Below, piece after piece: positions 1 to 11,447 of a stretch of 36,994 nt of DNA. Source of the DNA: Bacteroidales bacterium. Its GTDB lineage: Bacteria; Bacteroidota; Bacteroidia; Bacteroidales; WCHB1-69. Every line of letters begins with the position of its first letter. Within the stretch, counting starts at the first letter, position 1. The position numbers and the translations under genes are program-made. The notes beneath the pieces are model-generated. The model was not told the DNA's origin and did no database searches. It saw nothing but the letters and a program-made list of their open reading frames with translations. Location: the NCBI GenBank assembly GCA_028703095.1, contig JAQVNO010000007.1:1-36994 (forward strand), read 5' to 3'.

Positions 1-2112
1 TTCTTTGAAGTGGAAATATCAACCAATGCAAAACTTTCGTCTATTTCGGTAAATGGAAATGCAATGGCAACATTCCATGCAGATACTACCTATTATCATG
101 TAATACTGCATTATGACAGTATAATTCCGCCCATAGTATCAGTAGTACCTCAATCGGGAGCAGCTCATATTAGCATTCAACAAGCTCTTACAGTAAATGA
201 TTCGGCGATTATAACTGTTTTAGCGGAGGATAGTGTTCATACCTTAACCTATGTTGTTCATTTTACAAGACAGTTGTCTCCGGTGGCTACTTTAACAAAT
301 ATAGCTTATAAATTGGGTACTAATGATTCAATTGTTCATGATTTTGCTTCCAATGTATTTATTTATACCATCGATTTAAAAGCAGAAACAGTCAATGTTC
401 CTGATAGCATTCAATATAGCTTAACAGATTCCAGAGCCCAGGCACAAATTATTCGTTACCCTTTACATGTTAATGATACAGCAATCATTAAAGTAATTGC
501 GGAAAATATGATAGATAGTAATTTGTATACACTCATTTTTCATCGCTTACTTTCCGATAATGTAGCTTTAGATACTATCAAGATAAATGGTATACCTATG
601 GCAAACTTCAATAAAGATAGTTTGTCTTATACAGTCATTTTGCCATGGCAAACATCTGCTAATCCTGTTGTAAGTGCTATTGCATCCTGGAATCTATCAA
701 CGCTTCAGTTTACACAGGCAGGTTCATATTTTGGACAGGCACAAGTTCAAGTTATTGCTGAAGATGGAATCCATAGCAGAACCTATACCATTCAATTTGT
801 ACAAGGCTCTAATGTTGATTTACAAACTTTGTCATATGATTTAGGAGGTGTTAACTATACGATTGCAAATTTTAATCCTGCAGATACCGTATACCATGTG
901 ATGTTGCCAATTGGTACTACCGATGTTCCTCAGTTAAATTATAGTTTGCTTGATAGTCGATGCAGTGTAGATACTATTCCGGCAATAAATCCGAATGGTC
1001 AAGCAAGTTTAATTATTACCGGTTGGGATATGCTTCATATGAAGACGTATACCGTTAATTTTGAAGTAGCACTCTCAACAGATGCACATTTAATAGATTT
1101 ATTGGTGGATAGTGTGAGTTTGCCTGATTTTCATCCTGATACTTTAGAATATTTTATTGAATATGCATATGGTCGTAGCCAAATGCCTGTTGTAGAAGCA
1201 ATAGCTAAAGAAATCGATGCTCAGTTTGAAATAACTCAAATAACTGCATTTCCTGAAACTGCCATCATTCGTGTCAAAGCAGGAGATACAAACATTACGA
1301 TGACTTATCTGATACATTTCTCTATCGAAGCCGGTGATAATGCTTATTTGTCGGAATTAAATGTCAATGATATATTAATTTCTGATTTTCAAAAGGAAAA
1401 TTTAATCTATACCCAAGTATTGCCTTATGGTACTACTGATGTGCCGGTAATTACTGCAACACCCGAAGATAGCAGAGCTAGTGTACGGATTGAGCAGCCG
1501 ACTTCAGTCAGCGATACCGCTCGTATTGTCGTTGTAGCAGTAAATGCTAAGGATTCACTTATCTATGAAGTAGTCTTTACCCTAGCTTTGAACGATGATG
1601 CAAGACTTAAATTTATTAAAGTAGATGGAGTAGCAATCACCAACTTTGATCCGGAAGTACATAATTATAAATATGAATTGCCAATAGACTATCAAGGAAT
1701 TCCTGTGGTAACGGTTGAAAGCGAAGATAGTAACGCTACTCACCTTATTACACCGACACAAGCTTTGCCGGGGCAAACCGTTATCGATGTCGTAGCTGAG
1801 GATGGTATTAATGCACGTACCTATCGGGTGAACTTTGTTTTCGCAAATAGTATTGAAGTGATGAATGAAGATGAAAAGATTCTGATTTATCCAAATCCTT
1901 CACGAGATATAGTTAAAATACAAGTAGAGAGTGAATCAGCTACCATAATAGAAGCTCAATTATATGATTTATTCGGGAAGAAAATTAAATCAGAGTATAC
2001 TAATAATGGATCAATGGTGATTGATATAAGTTCCTTTTCAAACGGAATGTATATTTTGAAAATTAATCAGGGAAATAAAATGCTTAAAAGCGTTAAACTG
2101 ATCAAATATTAA
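1..2112 (+). CDS. Secreted multi-repeat surface protein with T9SS sorting domain (5' end outside window)
   Basis: The reading frame is open from the first base (codons TTC TTT GAA...), so the N-terminus and signal peptide lie upstream; a GTG at base 10 is internal and not a credible start. What is visible is seven tandem repeats of 84-92 residues resembling the cadherin-like beta-sandwich family (Pfam PF12733 type): each opens with a D/N-A-x-L motif, has a central F-x-P-D/E-x-x-x-Y strand pair and closes with AEDG-x-x-x-x-TY-x-V-x-F or a variant. A C-terminal domain of about 80 residues from base 1870 contains YPNPS and ends with a basic K-x-x-K-L-I-K-Y tail, typical of the type IX secretion type A sorting domain. 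The protein is therefore probably exported through the T9SS and anchored on, or shed from, the cell surface. Its last repeat and tail resemble those of the next gene, suggesting tandem paralogues. Ligand and function are not recognisable. Confidence 0.85.
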   Translation, partial: FFEVEISTNAKLSSISVNGNAMATFHADTTYYHVILHYDSIIPPIVSVVPQSGAAHISIQQALTVNDSAIITVLAEDSVHTLTYVVHFTRQLSPVATLTNIAYKLGTNDSIVHDFASNVFIYTIDLKAETVNVPDSIQYSLTDSRAQAQIIRYPLHVNDTAIIKVIAENMIDSNLYTLIFHRLLSDNVALDTIKINGIPMANFNKDSLSYTVILPWQTSANPVVSAIASWNLSTLQFTQAGSYFGQAQVQVIAEDGIHSRTYTIQFVQGSNVDLQTLSYDLGGVNYTIANFNPADTVYHVMLPIGTTDVPQLNYSLLDSRCSVDTIPAINPNGQASLIITGWDMLHMKTYTVNFEVALSTDAHLIDLLVDSVSLPDFHPDTLEYFIEYAYGRSQMPVVEAIAKEIDAQFEITQITAFPETAIIRVKAGDTNITMTYLIHFSIEAGDNAYLSELNVNDILISDFQKENLIYTQVLPYGTTDVPVITATPEDSRASVRIEQPTSVSDTARIVVVAVNAKDSLIYEVVFTLALNDDARLKFIKVDGVAITNFDPEVHNYKYELPIDYQGIPVVTVESEDSNATHLITPTQALPGQTVIDVVAEDGINARTYRVNFVFANSIEVMNEDEKILIYPNPSRDIVKIQVESESATIIEAQLYDLFGKKIKSEYTNNGSMVIDISSFSNGMYILKINQGNKMLKSVKLIKY
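25..1854 (+). repeat. Seven tandem cadherin-like protein repeats
   Basis: Repeat units begin at about bases 25, 283, 559, 811, 1081, 1339 and 1597 and are 252-276 bases long. The unit length and the AEDG...TY signature are conserved, but the nucleotide sequences have diverged strongly. This is an old domain array, not a recent DNA-level duplication, and slippage is unlikely to change copy number quickly. Confidence 0.85.
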
Positions 2113-2131
2113 CAATTTAATTGATTATAAG

Positions 2132-2172
2132 TATAAAAAGACATTATTCGTTATGAATATTGTCTTTTTATA
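2132..2172 (+). terminator. Strong hairpin terminator, possibly bidirectional
   Basis: A 12-bp perfect outer stem pairs 2132-2143 (TATAAAAAGACA) with 2161-2172 (TGTCTTTTTATA). One T-T mismatch follows, then an inner 5-bp stem (2145-2149 with 2155-2159) and a 5-nt loop GTTAT. The T-rich 3' arm serves as the U-tract. It lies 19 bases after the stop of the upstream gene and separates it from the next promoter. Confidence 0.8.
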
Positions 2173-2202
2173 TTTAAAAAAATAACAATACAAATATTTG
2201 TG

Positions 2203-2211
2203 TACTTTTGC
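2203..2211 (+). promoter_or_regulatory. Bacteroidetes -7 promoter box (TACTTTTGC)
   Basis: Matches TAnnTTTG followed by C, directly after the terminator. No convincing -33 TTTG is present at the usual distance. The expected transcription start is near 2214, giving a leader of about 37 nt before the ATG at 2251. The box rules out the longer reading frame that would begin with GTG at 2200. Confidence 0.6.
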
Positions 2212-2250
2212 ACCTCAAAAAATATGGTCAAAGAAGTTTTATTTTTTAGA

Positions 2251-3786
2251 ATGAAAAAAATATTTTTATATATTTTGATTACACTATCTTCATGCTATAT
2301 TTCCATTCTTTCAGCACAGACATATCAACTTCCGAATGCTGATTTTGAAACATGGGACAGTTCACATGTGCAATCTGAACCAAGCAATTGGAATTCTTTT
2401 CAAACAGCAAAATGTTTACTTCCTATTGGCTGTATCATGGCGATGAAACCACATCATTATCGTGTTGATGGAGGAAGATCCGGGAGTACCGGTAATTATT
2501 ATCTCACTTTATATTCTAATAGTATTATGGGTGTTATTGCCAATGGTAATATGACTTTAGGTCAAATCAATTTGGGGAGTATATCTACATCCAGTCCTGA
2601 TAATTATAATTTTACAAATAGGGCAAAAGCGGAACATTGTCAAATTTTTACAGCGAATCCCGATTCTTTATATATTTGGATTAAATATTATGCGGCAGAT
2701 AGTTCAAGCAAAGCAAGAATTGCAACGTACATACATGGTGATACTGATTTTAAAGACCCTAATGATATAAATATCAAAAGCGCATACGCCTCTAAAGCCA
2801 CATTGGAATGTAATCGTACGGGAAGTTCAGCAGGAACAGCAACTTGGATACAAAAAAGAATAGCCTTCGTTAAGGATGGCACTTCAGAAAGAAATTATAT
2901 ACTCATTACATTGACAAATAATTCAATTCCTGCTTCCGGCGAAGTAGGTGATTCCCTTTCAGTTGATGATATTGAGTTTGTTTATAGCGCCTGGTTGCAT
3001 AAGATTAAAGTCAATGATAAAACGATTGCAGCATTCAATACTTCACAATTGGAATATGATCGTTATTATCAATTAGGTACTAATCCTGATTTAATGCCGA
3101 CATTGACCATTATCCCCGAATCAAGTACAGCTCAAGTGCATATTGATACACTCTTGGGTCCTAATCACAATATTGACAGTGCTAAAACTATTATTACTGT
3201 TACTGCAGAAGATGGTAATAGTCAAAGAACATATATCATCAATCATTATATTTCAAAAACCTTATTAGCTAACAATGCAAAAATAAAAAACATTAGCATA
3301 GATGATGATCTTATTCCGGATTTTAATCCCGACACCTACACCTATCAATATGTGTATAATTATGAGAGAATGCCTACGATAGGTGTTGAATTGGAAGATT
3401 CCAATGCCAGTTATGATATTATTCCATTTACGGACATGCCCGGACAAAGCATCATTAATGTGCTTGCAGAAGATGGTGAAACAGTTTTATCCTATTGCAT
3501 TAATTTTACTTCCGGTGTGAAAGTAACGGAAGTTTTATCCACTGCCGATAATTTTATTTTATATCCCAATCCAACAAATAGTTGTGTTCAATTTTTGTTT
3601 CCTGATTCAGAAATTCATATAGATAATGTTTTTATTTACGATTTGTGTGGAAAACTAATCAAAACGCAGCCAATGAATGAAGTAAATATGCCGATAGATG
3701 TTTCTGCTCTTTCAAAAGGAGTATATATTATGAAAGTGAATCAAGGGGTAGAAACCGTTAAATTTTTTAAATTTATTAAATACTAG
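2251..3786 (+). CDS. Secreted PCMD-like protein with two cadherin-like repeats and T9SS sorting domain
   Basis: The ATG at 2251 is chosen because it starts a clean signal peptide (MKKIFLYILI..., cleavage likely after SA at residue 22) and because the upstream GTG lies in the promoter box. Residues about 26-245 resemble the PCMD family (PF13201) of Bacteroidetes surface proteins: an early N-x-DFE-x-W motif, a G-x-x-G-N-Y-Y-L strand, and a late VGDSLSVDDIEF strand. Two cadherin-like repeats follow (about 246-338 and 341-424), then a T9SS sorting domain (about 434-511) with YPNPT and a K-F-F-K-F-I-K-Y end. The product is 511 residues and probably displayed on the outer membrane. It leads a three-gene unit with a TonB-dependent receptor (24-nt gap), suggesting a surface binding role for that receptor's substrate. 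PCMD is a structural label only; a carbohydrate role is not shown. Confidence 0.8.
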   Translation: MKKIFLYILITLSSCYISILSAQTYQLPNADFETWDSSHVQSEPSNWNSFQTAKCLLPIGCIMAMKPHHYRVDGGRSGSTGNYYLTLYSNSIMGVIANGNMTLGQINLGSISTSSPDNYNFTNRAKAEHCQIFTANPDSLYIWIKYYAADSSSKARIATYIHGDTDFKDPNDINIKSAYASKATLECNRTGSSAGTATWIQKRIAFVKDGTSERNYILITLTNNSIPASGEVGDSLSVDDIEFVYSAWLHKIKVNDKTIAAFNTSQLEYDRYYQLGTNPDLMPTLTIIPESSTAQVHIDTLLGPNHNIDSAKTIITVTAEDGNSQRTYIINHYISKTLLANNAKIKNISIDDDLIPDFNPDTYTYQYVYNYERMPTIGVELEDSNASYDIIPFTDMPGQSIINVLAEDGETVLSYCINFTSGVKVTEVLSTADNFILYPNPTNSCVQFLFPDSEIHIDNVFIYDLCGKLIKTQPMNEVNMPIDVSALSKGVYIMKVNQGVETVKFFKFIKY

Positions 3787-3810
3787 AATATTTATAGACT
3801 GAACAAATTT

Positions 3811-6366
3811 ATGTTATATATTATCAATATGTTGGCTGAAAGATACAAACAATTTATCGTTATTTGTTTATTTTTTATTCCAATTTTTCTCTCAGCACAA
3901 CCTTTTATACTTAAAGGAACTATTTATGATGCGGATGAAAAAGAGTTAACCTTGCCTTTGACCAACATAGTTCCTGATTGTGAGAAGAATAAAGGCACAG
4001 TCTCAGATAATAACGGGCACTATTATTTAGAAATTAATTCATTAGAATGTGAAGTTAAGTTCTTGTATTTAGGATATCAGACTCAAATTAAACACATATC
4101 CTTCAAAGGAGCTAAGGTGATAACATTAGATATCTATATGGAATTAGATAACACATTGTTGCAAGAAGTAAAAGTTACGCAAAAGAGGTATGAAATGAAA
4201 AAGGATGAATCTGTCTCTTCGGTAGCATATGTTAGTCAACGAAAACTGGAACAAACAAATATAACAACCTTAGATAATGCGTTTGATCAGGTTGGGGGTT
4301 TAATTGTAGTAGATAATGAACCTCAGATGCGGGGTGGCAGTGGATTCAGTTCAGGTATGGGCAGCCGAGTGATGATAATGATGGATGAAATGCCTGTAAT
4401 GAGAGTAGATGCAGGTCGTCCTGCTTGGAATCTTATTCCCATGGAAAATGTGGAACAAATAGAAGTATTAAAAGGTGCTGCATCTGTTTTATATGGTTCA
4501 TCGGCTATCACAGGAGCTATTAATGTAAGAACAGCATATCCGAAAGGTAAACCACAAACAAAAATAGTGTTATACAATGGCTTTTATAGTCGCCCGCAAG
4601 CAGAATATCGCTGCAGTTGGCCCGTAGGAACCATACCATTAACTTATGGTGCTAATATTTCTCATGCACGAAAAATTAAAAAATTGGATTTGGTCTTAAG
4701 TGCAGAATATGCAAAAGATGATGGTTTTGTAGGGCAGGAACTTTCTGTAGATTCTACCTTGCGAAATCCGAGCAGCTATGAGAAAATAGTGAAAGAAGAA
4801 AGAATGCGTTTCAATTTTGGCACCCGTTATCGTTTTAAAAAAGAGGGTGTTTTTGCCGGGATTAATGGGAATGTGTTGTATTCTACGCATACTATGACGC
4901 ATTTTTGGTTAGATGCTGATAGCGGAATGTATAGAACATATCCGGGTTCTTTAACGGATATCCGAGATTTTATGTTTTTTGTGGATCCTTATTTCAAATA
5001 TTTTACTAAAAAAGAAGGCTCGCATTCTCTTAAAGCAAGATTAATGTATAGTGATAATTGGGCTACCAACAATCAGGATAGTAAGTCGGAAATGTATTAC
5101 CTCGATTATCAGTTTGCTAAAAATTTAAAAAAAATAGGAAATCTGCAATTATTTACGGGTTTAGTAGGGCAGTTTGCACGTTCTACCGGAAATGTGTTTT
5201 CAGGAGTAAGAGATACTAATTCGATATTAAAACCTAAATATGCTGCTAATGCTGCATGTTATGTGCAATTAGAAAAACGCTTTTTGAAAAAACAAAATTT
5301 AATTTTATTGGGTGGAGGTCGTTATGAATATTATCAGATTTTTGAAGATTTTGGTTATTTTATGAACGATACTTCTACCGGGAATTATGTAGAAGCCAAA
5401 CCTGTCTTTAGAGCCGGTATCAATTACAATATAGTAGAAACGTTTACCTTTATACGTGCTTCTTTTGGGATGGGATATCGTTTTCCCAGTATTGGAGAAC
5501 GCTATCTCACAACAAAAGTTGGCAATTATGGTTTTTATCCTAATCCTAATTTAAAATCAGAAACAAGTTGGAATGTGGAGCTGGGTGTGCAACAAATGTT
5601 TAAATTGCTTAATTTTAAGGGATTTATAGATGTTGCCGGCTATTATCAACGATATAATAATTATGTTGAATTTTTCCTGGGTCCTTGGCTGACAAGAGAA
5701 CAGGAGTTGAATCCTTTAAAACGATATGGGTTTAAATTTTTCAATACAGGCCCGGCTCGTATAGCAGGTGTTGATTTAAGTATAGGTGGTGAAGGTAAAA
5801 TGGGAAAACAAGTGAAGTATACATTGTTGTTTAATTATGCCTATACTAATCCGAAAGTCTTGGATACCGGTTTTGTATTTACCGAAACAGCAACAAAGGC
5901 ATATACCTATAATAACACTTCCAGTGATACAAGCGGTCGAATCATGAAATACCGAATAGAACATATTTTAAAAGCCGACCTGGATTTTATAATTTATGAT
6001 ATGTTTACTGTTGGTTTTTCCTCCCAGTTCTACAGTTTAATGAAAAATGTGGATAAGTTCTTTTACGAATTAGACAGGTATTCTTCCATAGCACCACGTA
6101 ATGTTAGAAATTCTGCTTATCCTTTTCCTTTTGATGGTTTAGAAACGTACAGACAAACACATGATAAAGGTACGTGGGTGTTCGGTTTACGAGCCGGTGT
6201 CGAAATTTCAAATGTAAAGGTCTCTGTTATCGTAAGCAATTTGTTTAATAAAGAGTATTCTTTACGACCGATGTGTCCGGAATCACCCCGTATAACTAGC
6301 TTGCAATTGGTGTATAAATTCACCGAAGGTGAACCTTTCTTTCCTAAAAGAAAAAATGATGCGTAA
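3811..6366 (+). CDS. TonB-dependent outer-membrane receptor
   Basis: This 851-residue protein has a signal peptide ending in LSA-Q at about residue 30, then a carboxypeptidase-regulatory-like domain (about 33-112, with G-T-V-S-D-N-N-G-H-Y), a plug domain (about 130-240) containing MENVEQIEVLKGAASVLYG, and a 22-strand-type beta-barrel region to the C-terminus. Such receptors take up scarce ligands (siderophores, haem, cobalamin, glycans) using TonB energy. No SusD-like partner is present, which argues against a classic glycan SusCD pair; instead it is flanked by two T9SS-exported PCMD-like proteins. An alternative ATG at 3829 (MLAERYKQF) gives a more compact signal peptide and may be the real start. 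It is co-transcribed with its neighbours to judge from gaps of 24 and 31 nt. The substrate cannot be read from sequence. Confidence 0.93.
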   Translation: MLYIINMLAERYKQFIVICLFFIPIFLSAQPFILKGTIYDADEKELTLPLTNIVPDCEKNKGTVSDNNGHYYLEINSLECEVKFLYLGYQTQIKHISFKGAKVITLDIYMELDNTLLQEVKVTQKRYEMKKDESVSSVAYVSQRKLEQTNITTLDNAFDQVGGLIVVDNEPQMRGGSGFSSGMGSRVMIMMDEMPVMRVDAGRPAWNLIPMENVEQIEVLKGAASVLYGSSAITGAINVRTAYPKGKPQTKIVLYNGFYSRPQAEYRCSWPVGTIPLTYGANISHARKIKKLDLVLSAEYAKDDGFVGQELSVDSTLRNPSSYEKIVKEERMRFNFGTRYRFKKEGVFAGINGNVLYSTHTMTHFWLDADSGMYRTYPGSLTDIRDFMFFVDPYFKYFTKKEGSHSLKARLMYSDNWATNNQDSKSEMYYLDYQFAKNLKKIGNLQLFTGLVGQFARSTGNVFSGVRDTNSILKPKYAANAACYVQLEKRFLKKQNLILLGGGRYEYYQIFEDFGYFMNDTSTGNYVEAKPVFRAGINYNIVETFTFIRASFGMGYRFPSIGERYLTTKVGNYGFYPNPNLKSETSWNVELGVQQMFKLLNFKGFIDVAGYYQRYNNYVEFFLGPWLTREQELNPLKRYGFKFFNTGPARIAGVDLSIGGEGKMGKQVKYTLLFNYAYTNPKVLDTGFVFTETATKAYTYNNTSSDTSGRIMKYRIEHILKADLDFIIYDMFTVGFSSQFYSLMKNVDKFFYELDRYSSIAPRNVRNSAYPFPFDGLETYRQTHDKGTWVFGLRAGVEISNVKVSVIVSNLFNKEYSLRPMCPESPRITSLQLVYKFTEGEPFFPKRKNDA

Positions 6367-6397
6367 CTATACAATTAAAATATAAAATTTATTCAAG

Positions 6398-7351
6398 ATG
6401 AAAAAAGTAACAATTTTAATCATGCTGGCTTTATGTTTTGAAAATTATAACATGAAAGCACAAAACTTTCCGGATGGAAGTTTTGAAAATAATTGGGAAT
6501 ATTTCAGTAATCCAACTCCGGGTAAAAGTGATTATTGGGATTTTAAGGATGCTTATTTTTTAGCAACCTTAAATCAATTACATGAGTTAAGCGGAGTTAT
6601 GGGAGATGCTCCATTAACGGCATTTAGAGAAAGCAATGCCATAGATGGCAATTACGCCTTGAAATTAATCTCTAATACCATGACATTCGGTGAAGATTTG
6701 TTTTTGCCGGGAGCTGCAGGGACTCTTTACATTGATTTTACTAATTTAGATTGTATTTTAGGCAAACCATTTACTCATCGCCCATTGCAATTTACGGGAT
6801 GGTTTCAATCAACTTTGGTAAATGGAGATTCAGCTGCTATTGAAGTGTTTTTGAAAAAAGGAGGCACGAAAATAGGTGGAGGTAAAATGTTGATTTATAA
6901 TAATGTTAATACATGGACTTCATTTAATATTCCAATAACCTATACCTCTCAACAAACGCCTGATTCTGTTGTTGTGATTTTTGCGTCCAGTGCCGGATAT
7001 GATTTTACAAGCATAGAAACTTTAATGCAGTGTAAAGGACAAAATGGAAGTATTTTGATGATTGATGATGTGGCTTTTGGATATGAACAAGGAATAAAAC
7101 AATTGTTATTTTCCGAAAAAGAAATATTCATTTTTCCAAATCCCGCAATAGATAAATTAAACATACAATTTAATGAATTACAGGATGGAAAATTAATAAT
7201 TTATGATAATTCGGGAATGGAAGTAGAATGCAAACTTGTTAATAGCGATAATGTTTCGATAAATGTTTCTGCTTTAGCAAAAGGTTCTTATTTCATTAAT
7301 TTATATGTAAACGGTAAACAAATAGCAAGTAAACAATTTGTAAAAGAATAA
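6398..7351 (+). CDS. Short PCMD-like secreted protein with T9SS sorting domain
   Basis: This 317-residue protein has a signal peptide (MKKVTILIMLALCF..., cleavage probably after MKA at about 21). It opens its mature part with F-P-D-G-S-FE-N-N-W, like the other PCMD-type proteins, has a beta-rich body with G-N-Y-A-L-K-L and ends the body with S-I-L-M-IDDVAFGY, the metal-site-like strand common to carbohydrate-binding jelly rolls. A T9SS sorting domain follows from about residue 240 (IFPNPA, ending KQFVKE). It has no cadherin-like repeats, unlike its upstream relative. As the last gene of the receptor unit it converges on the hydrolase gene with only 7 bases between stops and no visible terminator. 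It is probably a surface-exposed accessory of the receptor; this is inferred from position. Confidence 0.75.
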   Translation: MKKVTILIMLALCFENYNMKAQNFPDGSFENNWEYFSNPTPGKSDYWDFKDAYFLATLNQLHELSGVMGDAPLTAFRESNAIDGNYALKLISNTMTFGEDLFLPGAAGTLYIDFTNLDCILGKPFTHRPLQFTGWFQSTLVNGDSAAIEVFLKKGGTKIGGGKMLIYNNVNTWTSFNIPITYTSQQTPDSVVVIFASSAGYDFTSIETLMQCKGQNGSILMIDDVAFGYEQGIKQLLFSEKEIFIFPNPAIDKLNIQFNELQDGKLIIYDNSGMEVECKLVNSDNVSINVSALAKGSYFINLYVNGKQIASKQFVKE

Positions 7352-9804: not shown

Positions 9805-10665
9805 GTGATAAAGTTTAAAATATATAACAAATCAATAATCACATTAGGAATTGGATTATTTCTTGTAATCGCTTTGAGTTTTATCAGTATCAATACTAAT
9901 GCATTTGCTTTTCCGGTGAATGTGTTTTTATTAATGCTTCTTGTTTATTTTTCTTTTGTTGCCGGACGATTATCGGAACGTTTTAGATTTTTTTCTAGTG
10001 GTAAAACGGCATTATTAGTAAGTGTTTATATTATTGTTTTACTGATATTACATTGGTTTTTTTATCATCGTAAAAATTTTTCGGATAGTCTATTTCCAGA
10101 TTCTCTATATGATTTTTCTACATCAGCATTGTTTGTGATATCGTGGTTGTTTTTTTTATTTGTTTTAGGAGCTGTTATAGTGCGTAGGTTTACCATAGTT
10201 AAGAAAAATAACGTTTTGTTTTTGTTAAATCATGTCGGATTATGGGTAGCTTTGTCTGCCGGTTTTTTGGGAAGAGCGGATTTGTATACGATGCAAACAA
10301 TAGTTAATAAAGAATATGTGATTTTTCAAGCATATACTGAGGATAATCAAAAAATGAATCTCCCTTTTTCTTTAGGATTACAAGAAATACGGAAGGAACA
10401 TTATTCTTCGGGAGAGATAAAAACTGTTGAAGCAGATTTAATTATAAAAGACAGGCAGTATGAAAAGAATGTGTCTGTTTCCGTCAATTATCCATATCGT
10501 TATAAAGGCTATGATGTTTATTTGATGAATGCCGGAGTGAACGCTGCTAAACTACAAATTGTTTATGATCCATGGCGTTATATAGTTTTACTTGGAATTG
10601 CAATAATGTTTGCTGGAGCCATAGGTGCTTTTTTTACGGGTTTTAAACAATCAGTCTTAAAATGA
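9805..10665 (+). CDS. ccsB: ResB/CcsB-like cytochrome c biogenesis protein
   Basis: System II cytochrome c maturation uses a CcsB (ResB) and CcsA pair to bring haem across the membrane and join it to apocytochrome. This 286-residue protein has four hydrophobic segments (about 10-30, 37-56, 68-88 and 107-127), a fifth with LLNHVGLWVAL (about 138-155), a long soluble region with alternating strands (K-G-Y-D-V-Y-L-M-N-A-G, then V-Y-D-P-W-R) and a last membrane span (about 256-278), matching the ResB plan of Bacteroidetes. Histidines at H83, H88 and H143 lie at membrane borders where haem ligands occur. The start is GTG at 9805; the next in-frame methionine would remove two spans. It overlaps ccsA by 4 bases (ATGA), a strong sign of coupled translation. 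Confidence 0.85.
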   Translation: MIKFKIYNKSIITLGIGLFLVIALSFISINTNAFAFPVNVFLLMLLVYFSFVAGRLSERFRFFSSGKTALLVSVYIIVLLILHWFFYHRKNFSDSLFPDSLYDFSTSALFVISWLFFLFVLGAVIVRRFTIVKKNNVLFLLNHVGLWVALSAGFLGRADLYTMQTIVNKEYVIFQAYTEDNQKMNLPFSLGLQEIRKEHYSSGEIKTVEADLIIKDRQYEKNVSVSVNYPYRYKGYDVYLMNAGVNAAKLQIVYDPWRYIVLLGIAIMFAGAIGAFFTGFKQSVLK

Positions 10666-11447
10666 TAACTTGGGATAATTTTTATGTGTTTGTATTATTA
10701 ATTTCTATCTGTTGGGGGCTTGCTTCTTTTCTTGCTTTGGTGAAAAATCAATCCATATTATTTTTTCGCCTGCTCGTAGGTCTGCAGCTTTTGGGAATCC
10801 TTATCTTGTCATTTTTTATTATTGGGTTAAGTTATCGTCTGCAAAGACCACCTATGCAGACAACGGGTGAAATACGATTGTGGTATGTGTTGTTTTTGTC
10901 AATAGTTGGTATTGTTACTTATCTACGATGGCGTTACCGTTGGATATTGCTTTTTACGACGATAATGTCGATAGTGTTTATGTGTTTGAATATAGTGAAG
11001 CCGGAACTTCATAATCAAAATTTAATGCCTGCATTGCAAAGTGTATGGTTTGTTCCTCATGTAATTATTTACATGTTTTCTTATTCTTTGTTGGGCTGTT
11101 CTTTTATTATTGCTTTGGTAGGTTTAATCAAACAAAATTTTAGTTATTTAAAAGCTTGTGATAATATTGTCAATACCGGATTATCCCTTTTTTTTATTGC
11201 TATGTTGATAGGAGCTGTGTGGGCAAAAGAAGCTTGGGGGCATTACTGGACTTGGGATGCAAAAGAAATTTGGGCAGCCATAACAAGCTTGATGTATTTG
11301 CTGTATTTACATTTCAGAACATTTCAACACAAAAGACATTTAATTTCTTATCTTTTGTTGATTTTTGCTTTTTTCGCTTTACAAATGTGTTGGTACGGAG
11401 TAAATTATTTTCCTTCGTTAAGGGAGAGTTTACATTCTTATGTTTGA
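10662..11447 (+). CDS. ccsA: CcsA haem-handling protein, cytochrome c assembly (system II)
   Basis: This 261-residue integral membrane protein of the CcmC/CcmF/CcsA haem-handling family carries the tryptophan-rich WWD motif W-G-H-Y-W-T-W-D at residues 192-199, followed by A-K-E-I-W-A. Flanking histidines H133 (in V-P-H-V) and H258 (near the C-terminus, L-H-S-Y) fit the conserved external haem ligands. About eight membrane segments are visible. With CcsB it forms the cytochrome c synthetase that attaches haem to CXXCH motifs in the periplasm. In many Bacteroidetes the pair sits behind nrfHA; no cytochrome gene is present here. The last 10 bases overlap the 3' end of the opposite-strand coaE. 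Confidence 0.92.
   Translation: MITWDNFYVFVLLISICWGLASFLALVKNQSILFFRLLVGLQLLGILILSFFIIGLSYRLQRPPMQTTGEIRLWYVLFLSIVGIVTYLRWRYRWILLFTTIMSIVFMCLNIVKPELHNQNLMPALQSVWFVPHVIIYMFSYSLLGCSFIIALVGLIKQNFSYLKACDNIVNTGLSLFFIAMLIGAVWAKEAWGHYWTWDAKEIWAAITSLMYLLYLHFRTFQHKRHLISYLLLIFAFFALQMCWYGVNYFPSLRESLHSYV

Follow-up and report, generated by a model that had tools for sequence, protein, structure and literature searches.

Outer-membrane receptors of Bacteroidota are known to work with surface lipoproteins. What, then, is the arrangement of a TonB-dependent receptor that has no SusD beside it and is surrounded by proteins with sorting domains of the type IX secretion system (T9SS)? Such a receptor (gene 3) is found in bases 1-7351 of the window, a stretch of Bacteroidales DNA of 36,994 nucleotides that is the start of contig C76 in a draft genome (G000; 2.29 Mb, 192 contigs). 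It is one of four open reading frames on the + strand, and is followed by a PCMD protein (gene 4) and preceded by two stalk proteins (genes 1 and 2). Our reading, which we hold to be probable, is a receptor-with-surface-partner uptake system, in which stalked relatives of the PCMD partner catch the substrate and pass it to the partner, and the receptor imports it. From gene content, adjacency, co-occurrence, a sequence-level change of anchor, homology of the heads and a promoter site common to receptor and stalk genes in other genera, we infer the surface location, the ligand binding, the hand-over and the import. The features of the locus are as follows.

1..2112, + strand: gene 1 ('BIG'), C-terminal 703 amino acids of a T9SS stalk protein, bearing the sorting domain and 7 of the roughly 14 cadherin-like repeats
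2128..2176, + strand: RNA hairpin in the interval between genes 1 and 2 (-20.9 kcal/mol, z -6.9), likely the terminator of gene 1
2203..2210, + strand: -7 box (TAnnTTTG), from which genes 2-4 are likely transcribed
2251..3786, + strand: gene 2 ('MID'), with a PCMD-like head, 2 cadherin-like repeats and a T9SS sorting domain
3811..6366, + strand: gene 3, TonB-dependent receptor of 851 amino acids, with CarbopepD_reg_2, plug and barrel
6398..7351, + strand: gene 4 ('PCMD'), with the PCMD domain at residues 22-232 (fold match) and a T9SS sorting domain at residues 241-317

Overall organization of the locus

The Pfam sorting domain PF18962 is found in gene 1 (8e-15), gene 2 (3e-12) and gene 4 (6e-12), and all three proteins are above the cut-off for the T9SS type A sorting domain (PF18962/TIGR04183). 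The draft genome has 74 sorting-domain matches. The Pfam matches of gene 3 to the barrel (5e-31), plug (2e-18) and CarbopepD_reg_2 (6e-11) identify it as a TonB-dependent receptor. An earlier note on this DNA had described three T9SS cargo proteins around one such receptor, and no SusD, and both descriptions hold. SusD-like_3 (PF14322) has no match in the draft genome, with one control genome positive and the other SusD models not run genome-wide, and neither SusD nor DUF4374 nor HmuY is among the Pfam matches of the partner proteins. The score of gene 3 against the SusC/RagA signature TIGR04057 (24.4 bits) is below the cut-off of 46.2. Gene 4 matches PCMD (PF13201) with an E value of 3e-10 (40.6 bits vs. 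a gathering cut-off of 28). The Pfam Cadherin-like model is above its cut-off in gene 1 (2e-6) and below it in gene 2 (16.4 vs. 24.2 bits).

The hairpin at 2128-2176, followed by the -7 type box at 2203, suggests two transcription units, one for gene 1 and one for genes 2-4. The hairpin is AU-rich and is absent from the list of a GC-based terminator scan, and TAnnTTTG is what we take to be the Bacteroidota-type -7 box consensus. The mechanical start of gene 2 is a GTG at 2200; its true start is probably near 2251, where an ATG opens a signal-peptide-like sequence. The gaps between genes 2 and 3 and genes 3 and 4 are 24 and 31 bases, respectively, and a convergent gene is located 7 bases past gene 4.

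The receptor and its PCMD partner

The conserved core of the locus is the receptor and the PCMD protein. With a threshold of 1e-60, the receptor has a match in 60 of 118 genomes (own genome included). The family of the window comprises 71 of these genomes, again with its own, and 46 of them have a close receptor (41% identity or more). A PCMD protein at E ≤ 1e-20 is present in 45 of these 46 genomes, the exception being G067, where the receptor is cut at a contig end. None of the other 25 family genomes has a PCMD match at this level, the weaker matches among them being those in G010 (1.6e-15) and G035 (1.1e-11).

In all 45 family genomes with both genes (43 surveyed loci, G033 and the window), the PCMD gene is located 3' of the receptor on the same strand. 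The gap between them is at most 184 bases in the 43 loci, except in L071 (412 bases), where the receptor frame is broken, and in L067 (an overlap of 74), where the overlap comes from an early start codon. Outside the family, PCMD proteins flank the receptor on both sides in G108, and a PCMD protein precedes it in G115.

The structure model of gene 4 has a predicted local distance difference test (pLDDT) score of 75 and a predicted template modelling (pTM) score of 0.66. Residues 20-232 match four PCMD structures, with Z scores of 15.7-16.4, and residues 241-317 match T9SS sorting domains. The PF13201 structures 3HBZ, 3S30, 4JRL and 4HET, which have this same fold, are titled putative glycoside hydrolases. 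Further matches of the head, with Z scores of 8.6-10.5, near the range of common jelly-roll similarity, are a mixture of jelly-rolls (tailspike, arabinanase, Vip3, CBM16 and CBM4).

There are variations around this core. In genus g3, the partners have two PCMD stretches per protein (L146:1771-4023 and L147:1345-4286), and G033 has a further tandem copy. Directly upstream of three distant receptors (30-35%; L100, L107 and L108) is a small secreted protein of another type, about 250 residues long, and that of L107 has a sorting domain by a custom profile. A divergent sorting-domain protein is located beside the receptor in G154 (L307:9351-10388). In the genome of the window, another receptor (G000:C28; L145:1292-4819) is followed by a 117-residue frame and then by a PKD-like sorting-domain protein.

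Change of anchor in the partner

Ten loci, from genera g11 (L067-L072, L093 and L095), g13 (L087) and g16 (L065), encode a partner that lacks the sorting domain. A lipobox is found near the N-terminus in nine of these 10 partners, mostly followed by acidic residues. Among the 32 partners with a sorting domain in the same set of loci there is a single lipobox-like match, inside the signal peptide. Judged by these signals, the partner looks like a lipoprotein in three genera and like T9SS cargo in most others.

A loss of T9SS cargo from these lineages is not supported as the origin of the change. All 28 genomes tested have sorting-domain matches (39-135 each), and the ten from the lipoprotein lineages keep 45-100. 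On a receptor tree of 43 rows, nine of them of the lipoprotein type (G069 was left out, its receptor frame being broken), the anchor trait needs two changes, and a single origin of the lipoprotein form is disfavored but not rejected (approximately unbiased test, p 0.089). If the predicted lipoproteins face outward, surface display would have been kept while the export route changed.

The stalk proteins

Gene 1 is truncated at its 5' end because the window begins at the contig start. With a profile of the gene 2 head, a second copy of the head was found in the same genome at C179, in an open frame of 854 residues that runs to the contig edge and is divergent from a glutaminyl-tRNA synthetase-like gene (named by our own reading of the sequence). 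These are the first 854 residues of gene 1. The end of the C179 frame and the start of the window are both present, with a gap of about nine residues between them (by eye), in the partial counterpart of 1,242 residues in L033, a 99% relative, and the complete counterpart in L035 has 1,566 residues. By a custom profile, the C179 part and the window part of gene 1 have 7 cadherin-like repeats each, the L035 protein has 14 and gene 2 has 2. The whole gene 1 is predicted to encode a protein of about 1,570 residues, composed of a PCMD-like head, 14 cadherin-like repeats and a sorting domain. Gene 2, a local short copy, is related to it and has a short stalk. The earlier note had placed cadherin-like repeats in two of the proteins, as is found here.

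The gene 2 head has no Pfam PCMD match. A related protein in L096, which passes the Pfam PCMD cut-off, is included in the head profile (A5), and this profile aligns with the PCMD profile (A1) with a probability of 99.1 and an E value of 8e-19 (hhalign). By these profile matches, the heads of genes 1 and 2 are taken to be homologous to the PCMD partner. The count of two PCMD-like proteins in the earlier note was fair, because the family profile of the gene 2 head matches that of PCMD beside the Pfam match of gene 4; with the completed gene 1 there are three.

In genera g1, g3, g8 and g10, a head-and-stalk gene is located upstream of the receptor in all 14 testable genomes (G033 being taken from L047, and G023 not being testable). 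A short copy, or fragments of one, is found between the stalk gene and the receptor in the species of the window and in G001. The form with 2 repeats stands alone upstream of the receptor in G004, and the stalk gene is cut at the contig end in G005. In the remaining genera of the family, the stalk gene is not adjacent to the receptor.

The stalks themselves differ. By the custom profile, 14 cadherin-like repeats are found in the clade of the window and in one g9 genome, and a single repeat is found in another g9 genome and in 3,946 residues read from G061. Stalk-type open frames of 3,450-5,030 residues in genus g17 (L180:1-11840, from G061:C69, and also in G032, G067, G048, G053 and G021) have the same kind of head with a different sequence behind it.

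A promoter site common to receptor and stalk genes

The receptor promoters of genera with an unlinked stalk gene have the pattern TTAAC-N5-TTAAY, followed by a T-run. In 1.73 Mb searched on both strands, all 17 matches to the receptor-derived pattern are upstream of the receptor, a result that is partly circular because the pattern was taken from those sites. In 16 whole genomes, the same pattern has 31 matches, vs. 11 for a reversed control. These are before the receptor (14), unlinked stalk genes (5), a glycosyltransferase (3), an electron-transfer flavoprotein-like gene (1) and others (8).

A weight matrix was built from the 17 receptor sites alone. Nine of ten receptor-first upstream regions that had not been used for it score above all 455 controls (maximum 11.3), the exception being L053 (6.6). 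Among 40 upstream regions of head-containing genes, 14 are above all controls, and 25 are not (all six of g12, eight of nine of g7, several of g4, g9, g11, g13 and g16, and more distant ones); three g11 regions are near the control maximum, at 9.6. A weak fifteenth site, upstream of gene 1 in its own genome (score 12.3), was discarded because a -7 type box overlaps it (by eye). In 2.15 Mb, 25 sites reach a score of at least 15, and 24 of them are at the receptor, the 17 matrix-building sites included.

The distance between this site and the -7 box is restricted. Of the receptor promoters, 23 have a box, and in these the site ends 63-67 or 77-78 bases ahead of TAnnTTTG (in L093 there is another box at 56). 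The box-containing stalk promoters number 13, and their distance is 64-67 bases; two receptor and two stalk promoters have no box. About one helical turn separates the two spacing classes, as would be expected for an activator.

With a combined pattern, 56 sites are found in 53 family genomes (0-5 per genome), vs. 6 for the reversed control, and 37 of them are before the receptor (18) or a stalk gene (19). A global phosphate-type regulon, with direct repeats of the OmpR/PhoB kind, is not supported, as the site is rare and no phosphate gene was recognized behind it (genes read by eye).

Several other neighbors of the site were observed. In five g17 genomes (L187, L188, L189, L298 and L299), it precedes a GT4-type glycosyltransferase and then a second protein, which in L187 belongs to the esterase family. 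In g11 (L292, L294 and L295), it precedes beta-helix-like secreted proteins, and a sorting domain is present in L292, the complete protein among them. In G038 (L296:2354-4965), the site is followed by a FadL-like outer-membrane protein and then by a short sorting-domain head protein.

Proposed mechanism and alternative explanations

In the proposed mechanism, the TonB-dependent receptor would import a small substrate across the outer membrane, and the PCMD protein would be located on the cell surface beside it, as are SusD, BtuG and XusB. The sorting domain of T9SS cargo is removed and the C-terminal end of the protein attached to the surface, and therefore the head of a stalk protein should point outward. 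The PCMD-like heads, on long stalks (about 14 repeats, gene 1) and short stalks (2 repeats, gene 2), may catch the ligand away from the membrane; the PCMD partner would then receive it, and the receptor would import it with TonB. A more detailed version is tentative, and we think it somewhat more apt to fail than to hold: a two-tier capture system with a receptor-bound PCMD lid and co-regulated stalked 'fishing rods' with homologous heads serving one receptor, a dedicated activator acting on both in trans, and a lid whose anchor is swapped between T9SS and lipoprotein. Its stalks would be 2 to 14 cadherin-like repeats, or, in one genus, thousands of residues of other sequence.

The earlier note had proposed that the T9SS proteins capture a substrate for the receptor. 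This uptake arrangement gains from the invariant receptor-PCMD adjacency (45 of 45), from the export signal kept in the partner, and from the stalk gene being tied to the receptor by neighborhood or by the site. It does not stand as a unit of four genes: their adjacency is not universal, gene 2 is only a short copy of local extent, and heads occur without a receptor.

Several observations weigh against an uptake system of this kind. Among 15 loci with receptors of 30-38% identity, three of them inside the family, 14 have no PCMD neighbor, and G162, from another family, has a 41% receptor (one of 4 matches, own included, among 296 genomes of the phylum) with no PCMD protein within the 19 kb examined. 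The sorting-domain-free partner of L065 (g16) has a non-canonical Cys and no canonical lipobox. The structure model of gene 2 is poor (pLDDT 59), too poor for a fold search. Some genomes have head proteins but no receptor (g7, g12 and others), and in three of them, the g7 genomes G043, G068 and G070, the site precedes a stalk-type gene and there is no receptor match at 1e-60. The site is absent from 18 of the 53 genomes, and 19 of the 56 sites precede other genes: a glycosyltransferase (5), beta-helix-like surface proteins (3), FadL-like (1), radical-SAM-like (1) and PEP-synthase-like (1) proteins, and others (8, about the level of the reversed control), several of these names being our own reading of the sequence rather than Pfam assignments. 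In the clade of the window itself, all eight upstream regions score within the controls, with no site at these genes, and six genomes of this clade have one unrelated match, in G002. The link between receptor and stalk gene is by neighborhood only in this clade.

The main rival is that the receptor and the PCMD protein are an uptake pair, and the stalk proteins, as adhesins or surface-structure proteins, have only an activator of surface proteins in common with it. It is kept open because head proteins occur without the receptor, in three g7 genomes even with the site, and it would also account for the beta-helix-like, glycosyltransferase and FadL-like genes behind the site in some genera and for the freely changing stalk type (14 vs. 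1 repeats, and frames of up to 5,030 residues in g17). However, the site, which occurs 0-5 times per genome, has the receptor and the stalk gene as its two most frequent targets, and the heads are homologous to the receptor partner and are encoded directly upstream of the receptor in one clade. We regard this explanation as rather unlikely.

We also consider it unlikely, to a greater degree, that the heads bind carbohydrate and that an oligosaccharide or glycoconjugate is what the receptor takes up. The name of PCMD refers to carbohydrate metabolism, and the whole-head matches include arabinanase, CBM16 and CBM4; the same range of Z scores, however, holds a phage tailspike and Vip3, and neither SusD-like_3 in the genome nor a SusC/RagA score above cut-off is found.

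That gene 3 is a BtuB-type vitamin B12 receptor is highly improbable and was set aside: TonB-B12 is its best NCBIfam match (1e-25, but 90 bits vs. a cut-off of 600) and BtuB is among its best PDB matches, but the only cobalamin riboswitch found in the genome precedes a separate receptor locus, and none was found here.

Returning to the uptake system, its substrate is favored to be a scarce small ligand (an iron or heme chelate, or another cofactor) rather than a polysaccharide, a slight preference suggested by the best sequence relatives of the receptor and the missing SusC/RagA signature. The best PDB profile matches of the receptor are XusA (9GBC, 4e-16, over the N-terminal and plug part), PhuR and BtuB. 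B12 is unlikely. The earlier note had proposed a search for a cobalamin riboswitch upstream, and none is found around the receptor or the stalk gene in 21 sources at the Rfam gathering thresholds. The riboswitch of the genome is located before another receptor (L142:1-5281; G000:C114:14000 onward). That receptor has three proteins behind it: one with a sorting domain and a DUF4430-like region (22.7 bits, slightly below the cut-off of 23.8), another with a sorting domain, and a lipoprotein with DUF5074, presumably of the BtuG-like type. This locus is an internal precedent for T9SS cargo encoded beside a receptor, in a case where the substrate is identifiable. DUF4465, which PMC13398666 links to B12, has no match among the proteins scanned here and is not used as an argument. 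Elsewhere in the window, ResB-like and cytochrome c assembly (CcsB-type) genes are found at 9805-11447, without link to the receptor locus.

If the uptake reading holds, the PCMD family, so far 'putative carbohydrate metabolism', gains a candidate role as a receptor partner, and T9SS would be an alternative display route for such partners. Long stalk proteins of unassigned use become testable as capture devices, and the promoter site common to receptor and stalk gene offers a handle on the signal and hence the substrate.

Comparison with known systems

Among the open-access papers searched, PMC8941943 and PMC10404256 included, none was found to describe receptor partners exported by T9SS or a PCMD protein in the role of such a partner. 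The SusCD glycan importers likewise have a receptor and a surface partner encoded together. In contrast to them, there is no SusD-like_3 in this genome, and gene 3 is under the SusC/RagA cut-off. HmuRY consists of a small receptor and a surface hemophore. Its likeness to the present locus is that of a receptor with a surface protein, but the partner here is not HmuY by Pfam. In Porphyromonas, the response regulator HaeR binds the promoters of receptor and surface-protein genes (PMC3764172).

The BtuBG/BtuH system for B12 uptake in Bacteroides is similar in having a receptor, a lid partner, and further surface binding proteins that are not stably associated (PMC10404256). However, its lipoproteins, BtuG lid and riboswitch control are not found at this locus. 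The XusAB system for xenosiderophore uptake in Bacteroides has, as here, a TonB-dependent receptor and a dedicated surface partner, and in the XusAB complex (9GBC) the surface lipoprotein delivers siderophores with bound iron to the receptor (PMC13142918). There is a clear difference between the two partners, however. XusB is a DUF4374 beta-propeller lipoprotein, whereas the partner here is a PCMD jelly-roll, predicted to be T9SS cargo, with stalked relatives.

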